NCBI GenBank assembly: GCA_016795105.1
Contig: JAEUIH010000077.1
Span: forward strand, 1-35,506
Direction: 5' to 3'
Origin: Planctomyces sp.
GTDB taxonomy: Bacteria > Planctomycetota > Planctomycetia > Planctomycetales > Planctomycetaceae
DNA length: 35,506 nt
Part shown: positions 13,501-20,318 of the stretch, piece after piece
How the letters are laid out: each line of letters begins with the position of its first letter
How positions within the stretch are numbered: the first letter of the stretch is position 1
Position numbers and translations under genes: made by a program
Notes under the pieces: model-generated
What the model saw: the letters and a program-made list of their open reading frames with translations, nothing else
Told to the model about the DNA's origin: nothing
The model's database searches: none

Positions 13501-13980
13501 TGCAGGCCCGGCGTAGGATTCATTAAAACCAAAGAAACAGATGTAAGTGTCTGCACCAAAGGCGGACATCGGGTCATCCAGATTTGTATAGTCCGATGAT
13601 CGTTGCTGAATTCCAACTTCTTCAGCCGGCCGAGCAAAGTTGCGAACGACCAGTTCGAGTTCCGGGAATCGGGAGTGCAGCAGAGTTTCAAAATGCCCGA
13701 ACAGATTCATGCGCTCGGCAGTGGAGTTTCCGAGGAACCCAATCCGTTCACCCTTTAAGAACCGCACTGGCAATTCGCTGGGAGGCAATTGCGGGCGGGC
13801 AGGACGAGGTGGCCGTGCAAGGAGTTTCTCTGCCAGCTCTTTCGATGGCCCCTGAGCCATCGCGTGATCGGCTCCGCATATGAGACTCCCAATGATGACC
13901 CCGGCAACGGTGATCTTGTGGAGAACCGTCATCGGACGCAAACACGTCTGTTTAAAAAGTACTCGCTTCGACATTCGCAC
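10576..13980 (-). CDS. PVC-type exported heme-binding dehydrogenase with SGNH domain (1134 aa)
   Basis: A large exported multidomain protein. In order: a signal peptide (ending near HAMAQ); an SGNH/GDSL-like esterase region (about 70-290) starting at FLGNSTAERM; a PVC membrane-bound dehydrogenase region that resembles a soluble-sugar-dehydrogenase beta-propeller (about 395-760); HEAT-like helices (about 770-980); and a C-terminal cytochrome c domain with CTACH (1006-1010) and a possible distal Met near SSMPEG. It may oxidise sugars or sugar polymers at the cell surface and pass electrons to the heme; the substrate is unknown. The start at GTG 13980 is favoured by GGAG eight bases upstream and overlaps the upstream gene by 29 bp; ATG 13932 would also leave a signal peptide. 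Its TAG stop is the head of a REP unit. Confidence 0.9.
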   Translation of the reverse strand: MRMSKRVLFKQTCLRPMTVLHKITVAGVIIGSLICGADHAMAQGPSKELAEKLLARPPRPARPQLPPSELPVRFLKGERIGFLGNSTAERMNLFGHFETLLHSRFPELELVVRNFARPAEEVGIQQRSSDYTNLDDPMSAFGADTYICFFGFNESYAGPAGIPAFIESYQKYLDQISSRYPRDDSGASPRFVLVSPIAFESAGTSALPSGKIENENLKAYAAAVREVAAQRKLAFVDVFEASFMMFEAKPGLQLTINGCHLNDAGDREVARVIDLEMFGSPSKASFGSEVYERLRAAINDKSWVHLQDYRMLNGWYVYGGRRTWDTETFPREYAKIRRMAEVRDRYIWDLVQGKSVPEKPDDSTTGDLITPETRFGNPQQKYSEADALKYLSPEELVSSTHVPEGFKLVPFADETQFPELAKPVQLNFDNRGRLWVACMPTYPQWKPGDSHPNDRLIILEDTNQDGKADKSTVFYDKLHCPTGFEFFNGGVLVVDQPRMLWLKDNDGDDKADEVVHLMDGWATDDTHHTCGAFEWNHGGYLHMLEGIATSTTLETPWGPHRSQGAGGAYVMDPKTLKIRQFALPGQYNMWCYVFNGWGQGIVGDGTTANHAWDTPLSGAQFRGRTGLNMIFNNEGMRPALGTELLVSRHFPDEVQGQLTYACVINMNGLPRFTITDDGGGYAGARLKAADGSPDDLVRSTDKHFRPADPQIGPDGALWFGDWANALIGHMQYSQRDPNRDHTRGRIYRLTYPGRPLVEPVTQFGKSVPELLEQLKAYELRTRYRARRELRDRPTEDVAAAVAAWVRKLDPASDEYDRLRTEALWVLQSHHHHNVDLLSEVMTKSKAFEARAAAVRIIADEREYLDNAFDMLVMAAKDKHPRVRTEAARGLSFYPTLPAARTLMGMTQAPADYWCDYTLLHALAANESIWRSEYLTGKIAEAGPRAHEIVAQLMAASKSGATALPFLQTLLSQETKPEEERNKALTALSEIGGGDANRGREVFVRNCTACHRVGNGEGREFGPNLAGVAKRLKPLKIVQSIIEPNADLDAKYRQTLIITSDGMPVAGLVVSENDQEVEIFDGKALRKIAVADIEERVVQNQSSMPEGAAATMAPSEFIDLLEYLKAQNQEVAPQK

Positions 13981-16620: not shown

Positions 16621-19128
16621 ATGCGGCATTTGCTAGGTTCTACGTTTAGTTTTGGGGTATGCCTTGCGGCGGTTTGCCATTCAGCAAGTGCAGACCGATC
16701 GGTGGGCACGGCGGTCCCTGACGCGATGGTTCATCGATATGGAACACCGGCTGACAGTTATTTTGCACTTTCACTTCGTGGAGAAGCGGCCGAGCCGACG
16801 ATCCGCGACTTTATTCTCCTTGTTGATACATCTGCGAGTCAGACCGGTCGATACCGGGATGCTTCGCAGGACCTCGTCAATCGCGTGTTGACTCAACTGC
16901 CGGTTGGTTCACGTGTACAGCTCTTCGCTGTTGATACCACGGTAGAAGGTCTGACTTCACAACCTGTACCGGTGAACTCTGCGGAAGTTCGAGCTGCTGT
17001 GGAACTACTCAGCAGTCGAACACCACTGGGTGCGACCAACCTGTCAGTCTCGATGGAGCAGATCGTAAAGCGTCAGAAGACGGAAACTCGGTCCAGCTTG
17101 ATCTACATCGGAGACGGCCTAAGCTCAGCCGGGCTGTTGTCTGCAGAGCAGCTGTCCGAGCTGACTCGAAGTCTTCAGGACAAAAACATAAGTCTGCATG
17201 CAGCATTACTGGGTCCGAAACTTGATACTCAGTTGATGTCGGTTCTTGCGAATCAAACCGGTGGAACGGTTCAAATTCTGCATTCTCTGGACGTGGCGGG
17301 CGCGAGTTCATCTTTGGTGAAGTCATCTCAGCTTGCACCTGTGGCCGTGAAATCGATTACGGTTTCGGGCAAGGGATGTGAGTTGGTGGCGGGCGACCAA
17401 ATCCTGCTGCGAGCTGATCGACACACCGTGATACCTGGTAAAGGTGAGCTTTCTGGTGATGTTGTCGTCCGGGGCGTGACAGTCGATGGACGGAATGTCA
17501 GCTGGACAATCCCTGCTTCCGGGATTCAAACCGCTGGCGGTGAATTGAAATCAATCTATGGACGGGCCGTCGTCAGCGATGGTCTTGACATGTCTGTTGT
17601 TGGACTGAACGGGCTTCAGTCTGCCGCAAGGGAGTTTGAACTCTCAGTGAAGGCAGGCACGATTCAGCTGACATCTGCCGGACAGGTTTCGGATGAGCAA
17701 TCTGGTGTAGCGCCAGGATCCGCCGATGACTCCCTGAAGGCACCATCTGCTGGTGAAGAAGAAGCACTTCGAGCTGCCGAATCAAAACGTCAAATCCGAA
17801 CACAGCGATTGACTCAGCAAGTCAATGCCGCGACGGATGAAGCTCGCAAGTATGGAGCCTCTCAGCCGGACTACGCAGCCGGCATGCTGAAGGACATTCG
17901 GGAGACGATTGCCGCAGAAGCAGATATCAACCCCGAAGCCAAAGATGAGTTGCTGCGACGAGTGGACTCGGCCTTGATCAATGTTCAGACGTCTTCTGAT
18001 CATGCTCGACTGGAACTCCAGCAGGCTGCTCAGCGAGAAGCAGTCGTTGAAGCTCAGCGAAAGCTACTCACCGAAACTGCACTGGACGAAGAGCGTCTCC
18101 AGACAATGATTGATCAGGTGCGAGGACTCCTGAACCGTGCTCGACATGGAGATTCCAACGCCTACGAAGACGCCGAACAGGTTGCTCGCAAGGCAATTGA
18201 AATGACACCAGGAGACGGCACTGCGACGGCGGCTCTTGTTGTTTCTGAGGCCGCTGGTCAGCTTGATAAGGCTTACAAACTCGTCAATCTGCGACATGAC
18301 CGTTTTCTGGAGACGTTGTATCAGGTGGAATTGTCACACGTGCCGTTCCCGGACGAGCCACCTGTGCTCTACCCACCTGCCGACGTATGGCGAGCACTCA
18401 CGCTGACTCGCAAGAAGAAGTACGAATCTGTCGACCTGCGTTCAGAGAAGCCTGCTGAGAAGTGGCTTCGCGACATGCTTGACGAACCGGTTCCCGAACT
18501 CGAATACCAGGGTGAAGTATCACTCAAGGAAATCCTTGACCAGATTTCAGAGTACTATACGAACACTTATGGTGCGACAGGCGGTGGTGGTGCTGGTGCG
18601 GATTATCGCATGACGATTATTCCGGACTTCAAGGAGATTGAACTGGCCGGTGTCACGTCACTCGAAGATGTGATGATCAAGGATATTTCGCTCCGAGGGA
18701 TTACTCTGCGAAATGCGCTCGAACTGATCTTCTCGCAGACGGAAGACCCGGAACTGACCTACATGATTCGCAACGAAGTCATGTTGATCACGACGGTCGA
18801 ATTTGCAGAATCGGACGAAAATCTGATTACTCGAGTTTATCCGGTAGGTGACCTCACGATTTCGCCATCGATTCGCCCAAGCGGTGGTGGTGGCCAGGGC
18901 GGTTTCGGCGGCGGCGGTCAGGGCGGCTTTGGTGGTGGTGGCCAGGGCGGCTTTGGTGGTGGTGGTCAGGGCGGCTTTGGTGGTGGTGGCCAGGGCGGAT
19001 TTGGTGGCGGTGGTGGATTTGGAAGCATTCCACCTGAAATGCTGAATCCTGCTCCAGCAGCTGGCGATTCAGGTATCTCAAATGACGCCATCCAGCAGCT
19101 CAAAAAAAAACCAGCAAAGAAGAACTGA
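16621..19128 (+). CDS. Exported VWA-domain protein with coiled coil, STN-like domain and GGGGQGGF repeats
   Basis: Start chosen at ATG 16621 (AGGGGA upstream), which gives a clean signal peptide ending near HSASA. A von Willebrand A domain (about 62-240) has the metal-ion site DTSAS (69-73). A helical coiled-coil region (about 390-560) follows. Near 620-745 is a region resembling the short N-domains of secretins (SLKEILDQISEYY..., SLRGITLRNALELIF, MLITTVEFAESD). Residues 755-794 are five perfect GGGGQGGF repeats. The reading frame ends at TGA 19126-19128, just after an A9 tract, and the -1 frame continues open into the next gene. The annotated end may therefore be only one of two products. 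Function is unknown; the architecture suggests a cell-envelope assembly or adhesion protein. Confidence 0.85.
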   Translation: MRHLLGSTFSFGVCLAAVCHSASADRSVGTAVPDAMVHRYGTPADSYFALSLRGEAAEPTIRDFILLVDTSASQTGRYRDASQDLVNRVLTQLPVGSRVQLFAVDTTVEGLTSQPVPVNSAEVRAAVELLSSRTPLGATNLSVSMEQIVKRQKTETRSSLIYIGDGLSSAGLLSAEQLSELTRSLQDKNISLHAALLGPKLDTQLMSVLANQTGGTVQILHSLDVAGASSSLVKSSQLAPVAVKSITVSGKGCELVAGDQILLRADRHTVIPGKGELSGDVVVRGVTVDGRNVSWTIPASGIQTAGGELKSIYGRAVVSDGLDMSVVGLNGLQSAAREFELSVKAGTIQLTSAGQVSDEQSGVAPGSADDSLKAPSAGEEEALRAAESKRQIRTQRLTQQVNAATDEARKYGASQPDYAAGMLKDIRETIAAEADINPEAKDELLRRVDSALINVQTSSDHARLELQQAAQREAVVEAQRKLLTETALDEERLQTMIDQVRGLLNRARHGDSNAYEDAEQVARKAIEMTPGDGTATAALVVSEAAGQLDKAYKLVNLRHDRFLETLYQVELSHVPFPDEPPVLYPPADVWRALTLTRKKKYESVDLRSEKPAEKWLRDMLDEPVPELEYQGEVSLKEILDQISEYYTNTYGATGGGGAGADYRMTIIPDFKEIELAGVTSLEDVMIKDISLRGITLRNALELIFSQTEDPELTYMIRNEVMLITTVEFAESDENLITRVYPVGDLTISPSIRPSGGGGQGGFGGGGQGGFGGGGQGGFGGGGQGGFGGGGQGGFGGGGGFGSIPPEMLNPAPAAGDSGISNDAIQQLKKKPAKKN
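18883..19002 (+). repeat. Five in-frame 24-bp repeats encoding GGGGQGGF
   Basis: Five consecutive 24-nt units (third positions vary) encode GGGGQGGF and are followed by a partial unit GGGGGFGS. They form a flexible glycine linker near the C-terminus of the VWA protein and are prone to slippage, so copy number may vary between strains. Confidence 0.9.
19101..19128 (+). other. A9 slippery tract, candidate -1 frameshift site
   Basis: CTC AAA AAA AAA CCA in the VWA frame provides a classic A-AAA-AAA slip site at 19102-19110. The zero-frame stop TGA comes 15 nt later. The -1 frame has no stop from here through the whole following gene (to 20318). Options are ribosomal -1 slippage, addition of one A by RNA polymerase, or a one-base homopolymer error in the sequence. 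Confidence 0.7.
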
Positions 19129-19205
19129 GTCGAGTAACAGATGGCGTTCAGTATTGCCCGGCAGGGGTTCTGAACAACCATCCTGAACGACGTGCTTCTG
19201 AATGG

Positions 19206-20318
19206 GTGATGGTCTCACTGTCTGTCAACCAGCAGAAGCAACAACAGGAAGAAACTGAGAAACCGCAGAATTCGCCAACGGGTGAGTCTGCGGTTTCTTC
19301 ACGCGCGAAAGAAATACTGGCGAAAGTAACGACTGGCGTCGGCGAGAATTCAGGGCCGTCGGAGTTCGGAAAGTTGTGGGACAAGGTATTTCGGGAACGC
19401 GAGTATTCGTCGGAAGTTTTAGCAGAAGCATTTGCGATGCTTCATGCTCGGAAACAGTATGACGTCGCGGTTGAAGGTCTTTTGAGCAGTATCCGCAACG
19501 ACCATGCGCAGCCGTGGACATACGATGTACTGGCCATAGAAATGGCGCTGGCGAAACGGCCGGCGACAGAGCTGGATCGAGTCCTGCAGTCGCGAATTGA
19601 CTTTGTGCCCGGCGATCTTACACAAGTGATGCTGACCGTGGCGATGCTTTCCCGGTTCGATGCTCATGAGCAGGCCCTTGACCTCTGTCAGAAGGCGGCT
19701 GAATCAAATCCCGAAATGCCCGAACCATGGCTCGTTGGTCGAAATGTCGCAGATCGACTTGGCCGGCCAGAGGACCAGGTTTGGGCGAGGTGTGGGATTC
19801 TTCAGCATGTCTGGTTGGCGGACTATGCACGTCTGCATGAAGAAGCTCGAAAGACCATTCAGCGGCTGATTGAAGAAGCTGAGAAGAGGGGAGATGCAGC
19901 AGCAGCGTCGGCATTTCGGGAGCGTCTATTGTCGGCCAATGCTCGTGATGTCAAGGTCACGCTGAAATGGGCCGGCACAGCGGATCTTGATTTGATGATC
20001 ACCGAACCATCCGGTGTTCGGTGCGATTTTCGTACCAACATCACGCCTCAGGGCGGCCGACTGGTGAAGGTGGATAGTGGTAGTGCTGCGAATAAGTCCG
20101 GTAACCATGAAGAGCAATATGTTTGCCACACGGCAGCAAATGGCGAATATCAGTCCACTGTTAGGTTTGTCCTTGGAAATGTTGTCGCAGGAACAGCGGT
20201 ACTCGAGATCATTCAGAATGAGAATTCACCTCAGGAAACGCGGACTCGAAAAGTCATTACACTCCGCAAGGAAGACGCAGTGGTCTCCTTTACTGTTGAC
20301 AACGGAAGGTTGAAGTGA
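19206..20318 (+). CDS. TPR-like / DUF2135-like protein, probable C-terminal part of the VWA protein
   Basis: As a separate gene it would start at GTG 19206 or ATG 19209, neither with a ribosome site, and it has no signal peptide although its partner is exported. Residues about 60-235 form helical repeats of TPR type. Residues about 245-365 form a beta domain (VKVTLKWAGTADLDLMITEP) resembling the YfaP/DUF2135 domain that often accompanies VWA domains. The same frame is open upstream from 19101, and its translation there (SKEELSRVTDGVQYCPAG) reads like protein. The simplest view is that this is the rest of the VWA protein, reached by a -1 shift at the A9 tract (about 1230 aa in total). Its stop overlaps the acpS start (TGATG), which implies translational coupling. 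Confidence 0.75.
   Translation: MMVSLSVNQQKQQQEETEKPQNSPTGESAVSSRAKEILAKVTTGVGENSGPSEFGKLWDKVFREREYSSEVLAEAFAMLHARKQYDVAVEGLLSSIRNDHAQPWTYDVLAIEMALAKRPATELDRVLQSRIDFVPGDLTQVMLTVAMLSRFDAHEQALDLCQKAAESNPEMPEPWLVGRNVADRLGRPEDQVWARCGILQHVWLADYARLHEEARKTIQRLIEEAEKRGDAAAASAFRERLLSANARDVKVTLKWAGTADLDLMITEPSGVRCDFRTNITPQGGRLVKVDSGSAANKSGNHEEQYVCHTAANGEYQSTVRFVLGNVVAGTAVLEIIQNENSPQETRTRKVITLRKEDAVVSFTVDNGRLK

Follow-up and report, generated by a model that had tools for sequence, protein, structure and literature searches.

A candidate transcriptional slippage gene of planctomycetes: a conserved run of nine A's between a VWA protein and its downstream module

To our knowledge, functional transcriptional slippage is known from few cellular genes. 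In the Thermus thermophilus dnaX gene, it occurs at nine A's and gives two protein lengths, as described in the relevant parts of PMC1088944 and PMC5009743. In Shigella flexneri, the longer product of mxiE requires slippage on a homopolymer, which is a run of U's in the mRNA, and in some insertion sequence (IS) elements slippage on an A run joins two open reading frames (ORFs), according to the sections of PMC1088944 on these cases. In Citrobacter rodentium, a prematurely interrupted tssM gene gives two length variants (PMC4256274, in the part concerned). Here we analysed a stretch of 35,506 nucleotides (nt) from Planctomyces sp. (assembly GCA_016795105.1, contig JAEUIH010000077.1, positions 1 to 35,506 of the forward strand), referred to as the window, in which a gene for a putatively exported VWA protein and the ORF that follows it in the -1 frame meet at a run of nine A's (A9; shorter and longer runs are denoted likewise). 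We propose that the two are programmed to be joined, probably by slippage of the polymerase at this run.

The arrangement resembles Thermus dnaX in having a sense-strand A9 and one gene for two protein lengths, but it differs in that the unslipped mRNA there gives the long product and here would give the short one, and a hairpin follows the run here. Like mxiE, it would need homopolymer slippage to obtain the longer product, in a different gene. Slippage at tssM is described as rescuing an interrupted gene, whereas the arrangement in the window is kept across 47 genera. Unlike the IS elements, the gene in the window is cellular and not a transposase. As for planctomycete genes, we found nothing on slippage in the open-licence literature, including a term search of a Planctopirus limnophila paper (PMC10632474), a result that does not establish absence. 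Two planctomycete genomes are listed in a 2013 survey that looked for frame transitions genome-wide, according to the relevant part of it (PMC3711429).

The contig of the window (C366) belongs to an 8.9-Mb genome assembly with 391 contigs. The features of the gene are listed below, in which f1 denotes the family of the window, f2 a second planctomycete family, and f3-f7, f9, and f15 (used further on) additional families.

16621-19128, plus strand: ORF of the short form, 835 amino acids (aa), from ATG 16621 to the stop TGA 19126-19128, with a signal-peptide-like N-terminus (by eye), a VWA domain, a conserved C-terminal half, and a Gly-rich tail.
16813-17274, plus strand: VWA domain, residues 65-218, a Pfam match.
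18883-19023, plus strand: Gly-rich repeat tail (GGGGQGGF), read from the sequence.
19102-19110, plus strand: candidate A9 slip site, from the sequence and the comparison of f1 and f2 loci.
19126-19128, plus strand: TGA that ends the short form in the zero frame, 5 codons past the run (the f1 median is 4).
19110-20318, plus strand: part of the long form read in the -1 frame, with 402 codons starting at an ACC codon, then TGA 20316-20318.
19206-19208, plus strand: nominal GTG start of the downstream ORF in the ORF list; internal starts are not conserved in f1.
19258-19298, plus strand: strong terminator-like hairpin in the linker, from RNA folding and a hairpin search.
19344-20315, plus strand: downstream module of TPR-like helices and then a beta domain, from Pfam and a low-confidence model.

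The -1 frame from 19101 reads QKKTSKEELSRVTDGVQYCPAG... and meets its first stop at TGA 20316-20318. One A added at the run would give a fusion of 830 + 402 = 1232 aa, as computed. An earlier note on this DNA had proposed a fusion of about 1230 aa through slippage at A9, together with a short form. All of its coordinates were verified, including A9 at 19102-19110, TGA at 19126-19128, and the open -1 frame, and the proposal itself is strongly supported by the comparison across f1 (47 genera) and f2 given below. The hairpin at 19258-19298 is a feature absent from that note.

A profile of the C-terminal half of the VWA protein was searched against 170 genomes of f1, and 159 of them matched. The loci examined came from 132 of these 159 genomes, among the matches listed; G140, G091, and G170 were left out because the profile match reaches the contig start. 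Identical junctions were counted once (15 were dropped), which gave 145 distinct loci from 132 genomes and 53 genera. The first 30 loci collected, the one in the window included, had the downstream module in 27 cases, with A9 in 26 and A10 in one, and with a -1 relation in 26 and a +1 relation in one (L015). Over the whole set, 116 of the 145 loci, from 47 genera, had an A run at which a -1 shift joins the two modules. The run was A9 at 113 of these 116 junctions, A8 at two, and A10 at one, and no junction was without a run. The A9 junctions alone cover 46 genera, and the A8 and A10 loci bring the number to 47. Of the remaining loci, one was fused with A10, three had a +1 relation at A9, and one had a stop before the run. 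Fourteen loci had no downstream module although at least 600 nt follow, and none of the 14 had the run; in nine of these cases the same genome also has a slip copy. Two further copies with neither module nor run were found in G166. The other 10 of the 145 loci were set aside: five are truncated where the piece ends, and five show no module but have less than 600 nt of sequence remaining (two of the latter with A9). One of these last five, L121, is long enough in its duplicate L132, and both L121 and the copy preceding it are without module and run.

At the f1 junctions the flanking bases were variable and the run was constant. The zero-frame stop lies a median of 4 codons past the run, and all 116 loci have a -1 frame that stays open across the run. 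Between the run and the matched domain, stops were found in none of the 116 linkers in the -1 frame, in 113 in the +1 frame, and in all 116 in the zero frame. Runs of at least nine A's are rare in the genome of the window, with 30 distinct sites on both strands of 8.9 Mb (34 overlapping matches), and in the relative G121 (two contigs, 5.5 Mb) there are 10 A9 sites, one of which is the VWA slip site (L309). Given this rarity and the presence of a run at all 116 junctions, the A9 junction occurs far above chance. The comparison indicates that the fusion is almost certainly programmed.

The same arrangement was found in f2. Profile matches at E <= 1e-20 were obtained in all 45 genomes of this family, and in 43 the match reached E <= 1e-60. 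Of 30 loci, 28 had A9 with a -1 relation, one was fused with A10, and one lacked both run and module. The 11 loci from f3-f7 were single ORFs, with no run of at least seven A's near or past the end of the profile match; the entire module lies inside the ORF in eight of them, and in three (L199, L200, and L202) its C-terminal end was the only part matched. Among the matches listed for the order to which one of these families belongs, many fall in ORFs 1300-1450 aa long. In 18 loci of the same order with shorter ORFs, some of them cut by contig ends, no run was found near the stop, and in five of the 18 (L336, L338, L343, and L344 of f9 and L347 of f15) the module is a separate downstream gene. 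Each of these separate genes begins at a start of its own, with an N-terminus that resembles a signal peptide (by eye), and none has an A run. The module is thus fused, or separate with an export signal, or behind A9 without one, and the A9 layout makes most sense if the module is exported as part of the fusion. This strengthens the export argument of the earlier note, by which the partner is exported and the downstream ORF has no signal peptide.

In an unrooted tree of 48 rows, f1 and f2 each formed one side of a branch and were not drawn as sisters. As the tree is unrooted, it is compatible with two gains of A9 and also with a single origin in f1 and f2 followed by losses. An f2 query against 294 genomes drawn from the phylum gave 17 matches at E <= 1e-40, all from f1, f5, or f7. 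This draw is a weak test, since it gave no f2 match either.

We then asked which machine slips. Among the 116 f1 junctions, the run begins in phase 0 at 100, in phase 1 at four, and in phase 2 at 12; of the 28 f2 loci, 26 have it in phase 1 and two in phase 2. As A9 is kept in all three codon phases, no single in-frame heptamer accounts for the nine constant A's. If the site were an in-frame A_AAA_AAA, two of the nine positions could vary, which two depending on the phase, and none of them does except at two A8 loci of one genus, which read AAA AAA AAG. The constancy of these surplus positions favours, without proving, a process that depends on run length, i.e. polymerase slippage. The run is long and rare, the run and the extension are both conserved, and the length is independent of phase, all as expected of programmed transcriptional slippage. 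It is likely from these features that the polymerase rather than the ribosome slips, and programmed fusion through polymerase slippage at A9 is accordingly our preferred, probable explanation of the gene. Slippage of the polymerase at A9 would add one A (or a number equal to +1 modulo 3) to some of the transcripts. The unslipped mRNA would give the 835-aa exported VWA protein, and the slipped mRNA would give the fusion of about 1232 aa, in which the signal peptide of the VWA protein may carry the TPR/beta module out of the cytoplasm. One transcription unit would then have two programmed products, and both proteins are presumably used.

Support from the same genome comes from dnaX, whose A run has the Thermus layout. 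An in-frame A9 or A10 was found in 25 of 30 f1 dnaX loci (L272-L301), and both other frames stop within 23 codons in 24 of the 25, the exception being L296, with 73 codons in one frame. The dnaX of the genome of the window (L039, G000:C50:2913-2922) has an in-frame A10, and its other frames stop within 6 codons. The family's own dnaX is therefore laid out as the Thermus gene is described in the parts of PMC1088944 and PMC5009743 cited above.

A hairpin follows the run in the linker. In f1, the RNA fold z score against shuffles averaged -3.75 in the region +40 to 120 nt past the run, with 76% of the loci below -2, compared with -0.43 in an upstream window and -0.31 and -0.20 in two far windows; near windows that overlap the hairpin gave -1.03 (0 to 60) and -1.17 (+5 to 85). 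A search for gapless stems, in which a score of at least 25 was taken as strong, gave a best hairpin with a median stem of 15 positions, starting a median of 67 nt past the run in the 116 loci. It lies 3' of the zero-frame stop in 115 of the 116 and 5' of the matched domain in 108. A score of at least 25 was reached in 94 of the 116 loci (81%) as against 7% of 115 control windows from the same loci, or in 37 of 47 genera as against 3 of 47; in f2, it was reached in 63% of the 30 loci as against 7%. There are 4.0 U's within 8 nt after the G-C core compared with 1.7 in the controls, and the f1 hairpin thus has the G-C-rich stem and U-rich tail of an intrinsic terminator or attenuator. The 94 strong hairpins have 81 distinct 5' arms, which indicates that the structure and not the sequence is kept. 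In the window, the 66-nt piece folds at -28.5 kcal/mol with a z score of -4.63, and UUUCUU follows the G-C core.

Other roles for the hairpin were considered and rejected. A stimulator of ribosomal frameshifting was rejected because of the distance from the run. Control of the neighbouring acpS gene was rejected too, as acpS was found in one of 78 loci with at least 250 nt past the module, that of the window itself. A by-product of the encoded protein was rejected because none of 20 synonymous recodings of the linker reached the hairpin score in 28 of 40 sampled loci. Nor is it a general companion of A runs, as a score of at least 25 is rare at the runs of dnaX (2 of 16, from the 25 run-bearing loci) and of a second fusion gene described below (1 of 10, L246). 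Slippage does not need the hairpin, since such runs are without it. Among fused genes, 2 of 12 (L197 and L205) reached 25 within 260 nt before the domain.

We tentatively propose a slippage-gated attenuator, in which the number of A's may set both protein length and mRNA length, molecule by molecule. Transcripts somewhat more probably than otherwise end at the hairpin at all, judging from its form, and termination there could depend on the reading frame, a step that we hold a little less firmly. With nine A's, the ribosome would be released at the short-form stop, the hairpin would fold, and transcription would end. With ten, the following ribosome would translate the -1 frame and cover the hairpin, and the polymerase would complete the long mRNA. 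In tR2 and pyrBI attenuation, likewise, a ribosome close behind the polymerase blocks folding of the terminator hairpin (PMC4824070, in the part on these systems); the frame is fixed by the DNA there, whereas here slippage would set it for each molecule, and coupling in planctomycetes is our assumption. The same part of PMC4824070 reports that an E. coli terminator acts at full strength once it is more than 27-30 nt from the stop, and that a one-base insertion placing the stop beside the terminator lowers termination from about 90% to less than 10%. In f1, the short-form stop is at least 27 nt upstream of the hairpin in 89 of the 94 strong cases, and the hairpin lies inside the long frame, an anatomy from which we infer that nine-A transcripts would be ended and ten-A transcripts completed.

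The rival to this is a hairpin that is not gated by the frame, either an mRNA-stabilising 3' end or a plain leaky terminator of the short form, with no coupling to translation, and we consider it a real if somewhat doubtful possibility. The plain terminator crossed by leakage is the main rival, because hairpins often follow the stop in module-less copies too, with a score of at least 25 in 10 of 14. The spacing of at least 27 nt, which fits the distance at which ribosome interference ceased in E. coli in the work just cited, and the passage of the long frame through the hairpin in all 116 loci argue for gating instead; both are matters of geometry. Besides the module-less copies, several observations weigh against the attenuator. 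A hairpin with a score of at least 25 is missing from 22 of the 116 f1 loci and 11 of the 30 f2 loci, tails past the hairpin are often interrupted (e.g. UUCUGUU), and at least one synonymous recoding equals the hairpin in 12 of the 40 sampled loci. In the window, the hairpin lies 129 nt past the short-form stop compared with the f1 median of 49, and it is not called by a strict terminator scan. The PhnD-PQQ and dnaX runs without such a hairpin count on the same side.

Turning to the fusion itself, programmed -1 ribosomal frameshifting on the A_AAA_AAA within the run would give the same two products from a uniform mRNA. An X_XXY_YYZ heptamer lies within any A9, and the A8 loci have A_AAA_AAG. 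Poly-A length was also found to raise frameshift efficiency, in three cassettes described in part of PMC3711429. However, the heptamer takes seven A's, and nine are kept in 113 of 116 f1 loci across three phases. No stimulatory structure was found in f1 a few nt 3' of the slip site, where it usually lies, and the median distance from the run to the start of the best hairpin is 67 nt. Ribosomal frameshifting is thus unlikely at this gene. A case for it lies in the second fusion gene of the same genome, which joins a phosphonate-binding-like protein (PhnD) to a PQQ propeller (Pfam; L050, G000:C343:11842-11850, and L242-L254). A run of A8-A10 was found at the junction in 10 of 13 homologues from f1, f3, and f5, nine of them with a -1 and one with a +1 relation (L247). 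A G follows the run in 10 of 10, with an in-frame A_AAA_AAG in nine by frame reading, so the ribosome may slip there.

The findings that count against polymerase slippage at the VWA gene are as follows: every A9 holds an in-frame A_AAA_AAA, the two A8 loci read as a classical ribosomal site, the loci L015, L120, and L140 need a +1 shift at A9, and in L175 the stop precedes the run. These three +1 loci and L175 may be assembly errors or real. L148 and L240, both from draft assemblies, have A10 and encode the modules in a single ORF, which fits a return to the long frame through one additional A. Their A10 may be a real change of the default product or a homopolymer error.

A second alternative is that there are two cistrons, with translation of the downstream part beginning independently at GTG 19206 or a similar start, and with no role for A9. 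A GTG is indeed present at 19206, at least one ATG, GTG, or TTG occurs in 70 of the 116 f1 linkers, and f9 and f15 encode the module in a gene of its own. However, ATG is absent from 104 of the 116 linkers and all three start codons from 46, the -1 frame is uninterrupted through every run, and the downstream part in the window has no visible signal peptide, whereas its separate homologues have one (by eye). We regard two cistrons as very improbable in f1: an independent downstream start is not conserved there and holds for f9 and f15. The earlier note had named clearly separate orthologous genes as evidence against the fusion. Genes of this kind do exist, with their own start, but they belong to other families (f9 and f15), and A9 and the -1 relation are kept in f1 and f2.

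The last alternative is that the gene is really a single ORF, broken by a mistake in sequencing or assembly or by a recent frameshift mutation. Homopolymers are prone to error, the assembly has 391 contigs, and the earlier note had left a one-base sequencing error as an alternative. This reading has practically no chance and is refuted by the same A9 and -1 relation in 46 f1 genera (47 with A8 and A10), in f2, and in single-contig genomes such as G004, G007, G016, G021, and G036.

The VWA domain of the protein in the window was matched by Pfam VWA_3 at an E value of 5.5e-20 (72.4 bits against a cut-off of 27), and the C-terminal half of the VWA protein is conserved (alignment A1). TPR_14 matched 26 of 34 downstream modules at E <= 1, the best value being 1.9e-6. 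The earlier note had called the module TPR/DUF2135. The TPR part stands, and the DUF2135 part is weak: PF09906 gave no significant match, with hits in two of the 34 modules (best E value 0.038) and none in that of the window. A model of the downstream module had a mean predicted local distance difference test score (pLDDT) of 56 and nine strands in the beta domain, at low confidence, and a fold search with it gave no match at E <= 0.001. The products may belong to a complex that is secreted or located in the cell envelope, to which the short form would contribute the VWA domain and the long form would add a TPR interaction module.

The gene is a slippage candidate whose run length is unchanged across 46 f1 genera and is the same in f2. 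It comes with natural comparators, namely single ORFs, separate genes, A10 copies, and paralogues without run and module, and the question of why such a gene should slip rather than fuse becomes testable in cultured planctomycetes. The hairpin adds a specific hypothesis, namely that the ribosome couples slippage to transcription termination. If this is true, a one-base stutter of the polymerase would fix protein length and mRNA length in a cellular gene across two bacterial families. Gene finders unaware of slippage presumably annotate one functional protein as two.

Other A9 sites were also noted in these genomes. In the genome of the window, the two ORFs of an IS3-like element (by eye) meet at A9 in a +1 relation (L056, G000:C347:162929-162937), and in-frame A9 runs lie in a reverse-transcriptase-like ORF (L043, G000:C78:1254-1262) and a dnaB-like helicase ORF (L058, G000:C357:10068-10076), both assigned by eye. 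The A9 sites of G121 are L302-L311. One of them, L306, is an in-frame run within an ORF that resembles a hydrolase (by eye), where one other frame stops 5 codons on. Elsewhere in the window, on the minus strand at 13952-13980, a 747-aa ORF overlaps by 29 nt with the listed start of a 1134-aa ORF, and there is no A run at the overlap. The 747-aa ORF has no Pfam match, and the 1134-aa ORF matches DUF7133, GDSL lipase, HEAT, and cytochrome c.

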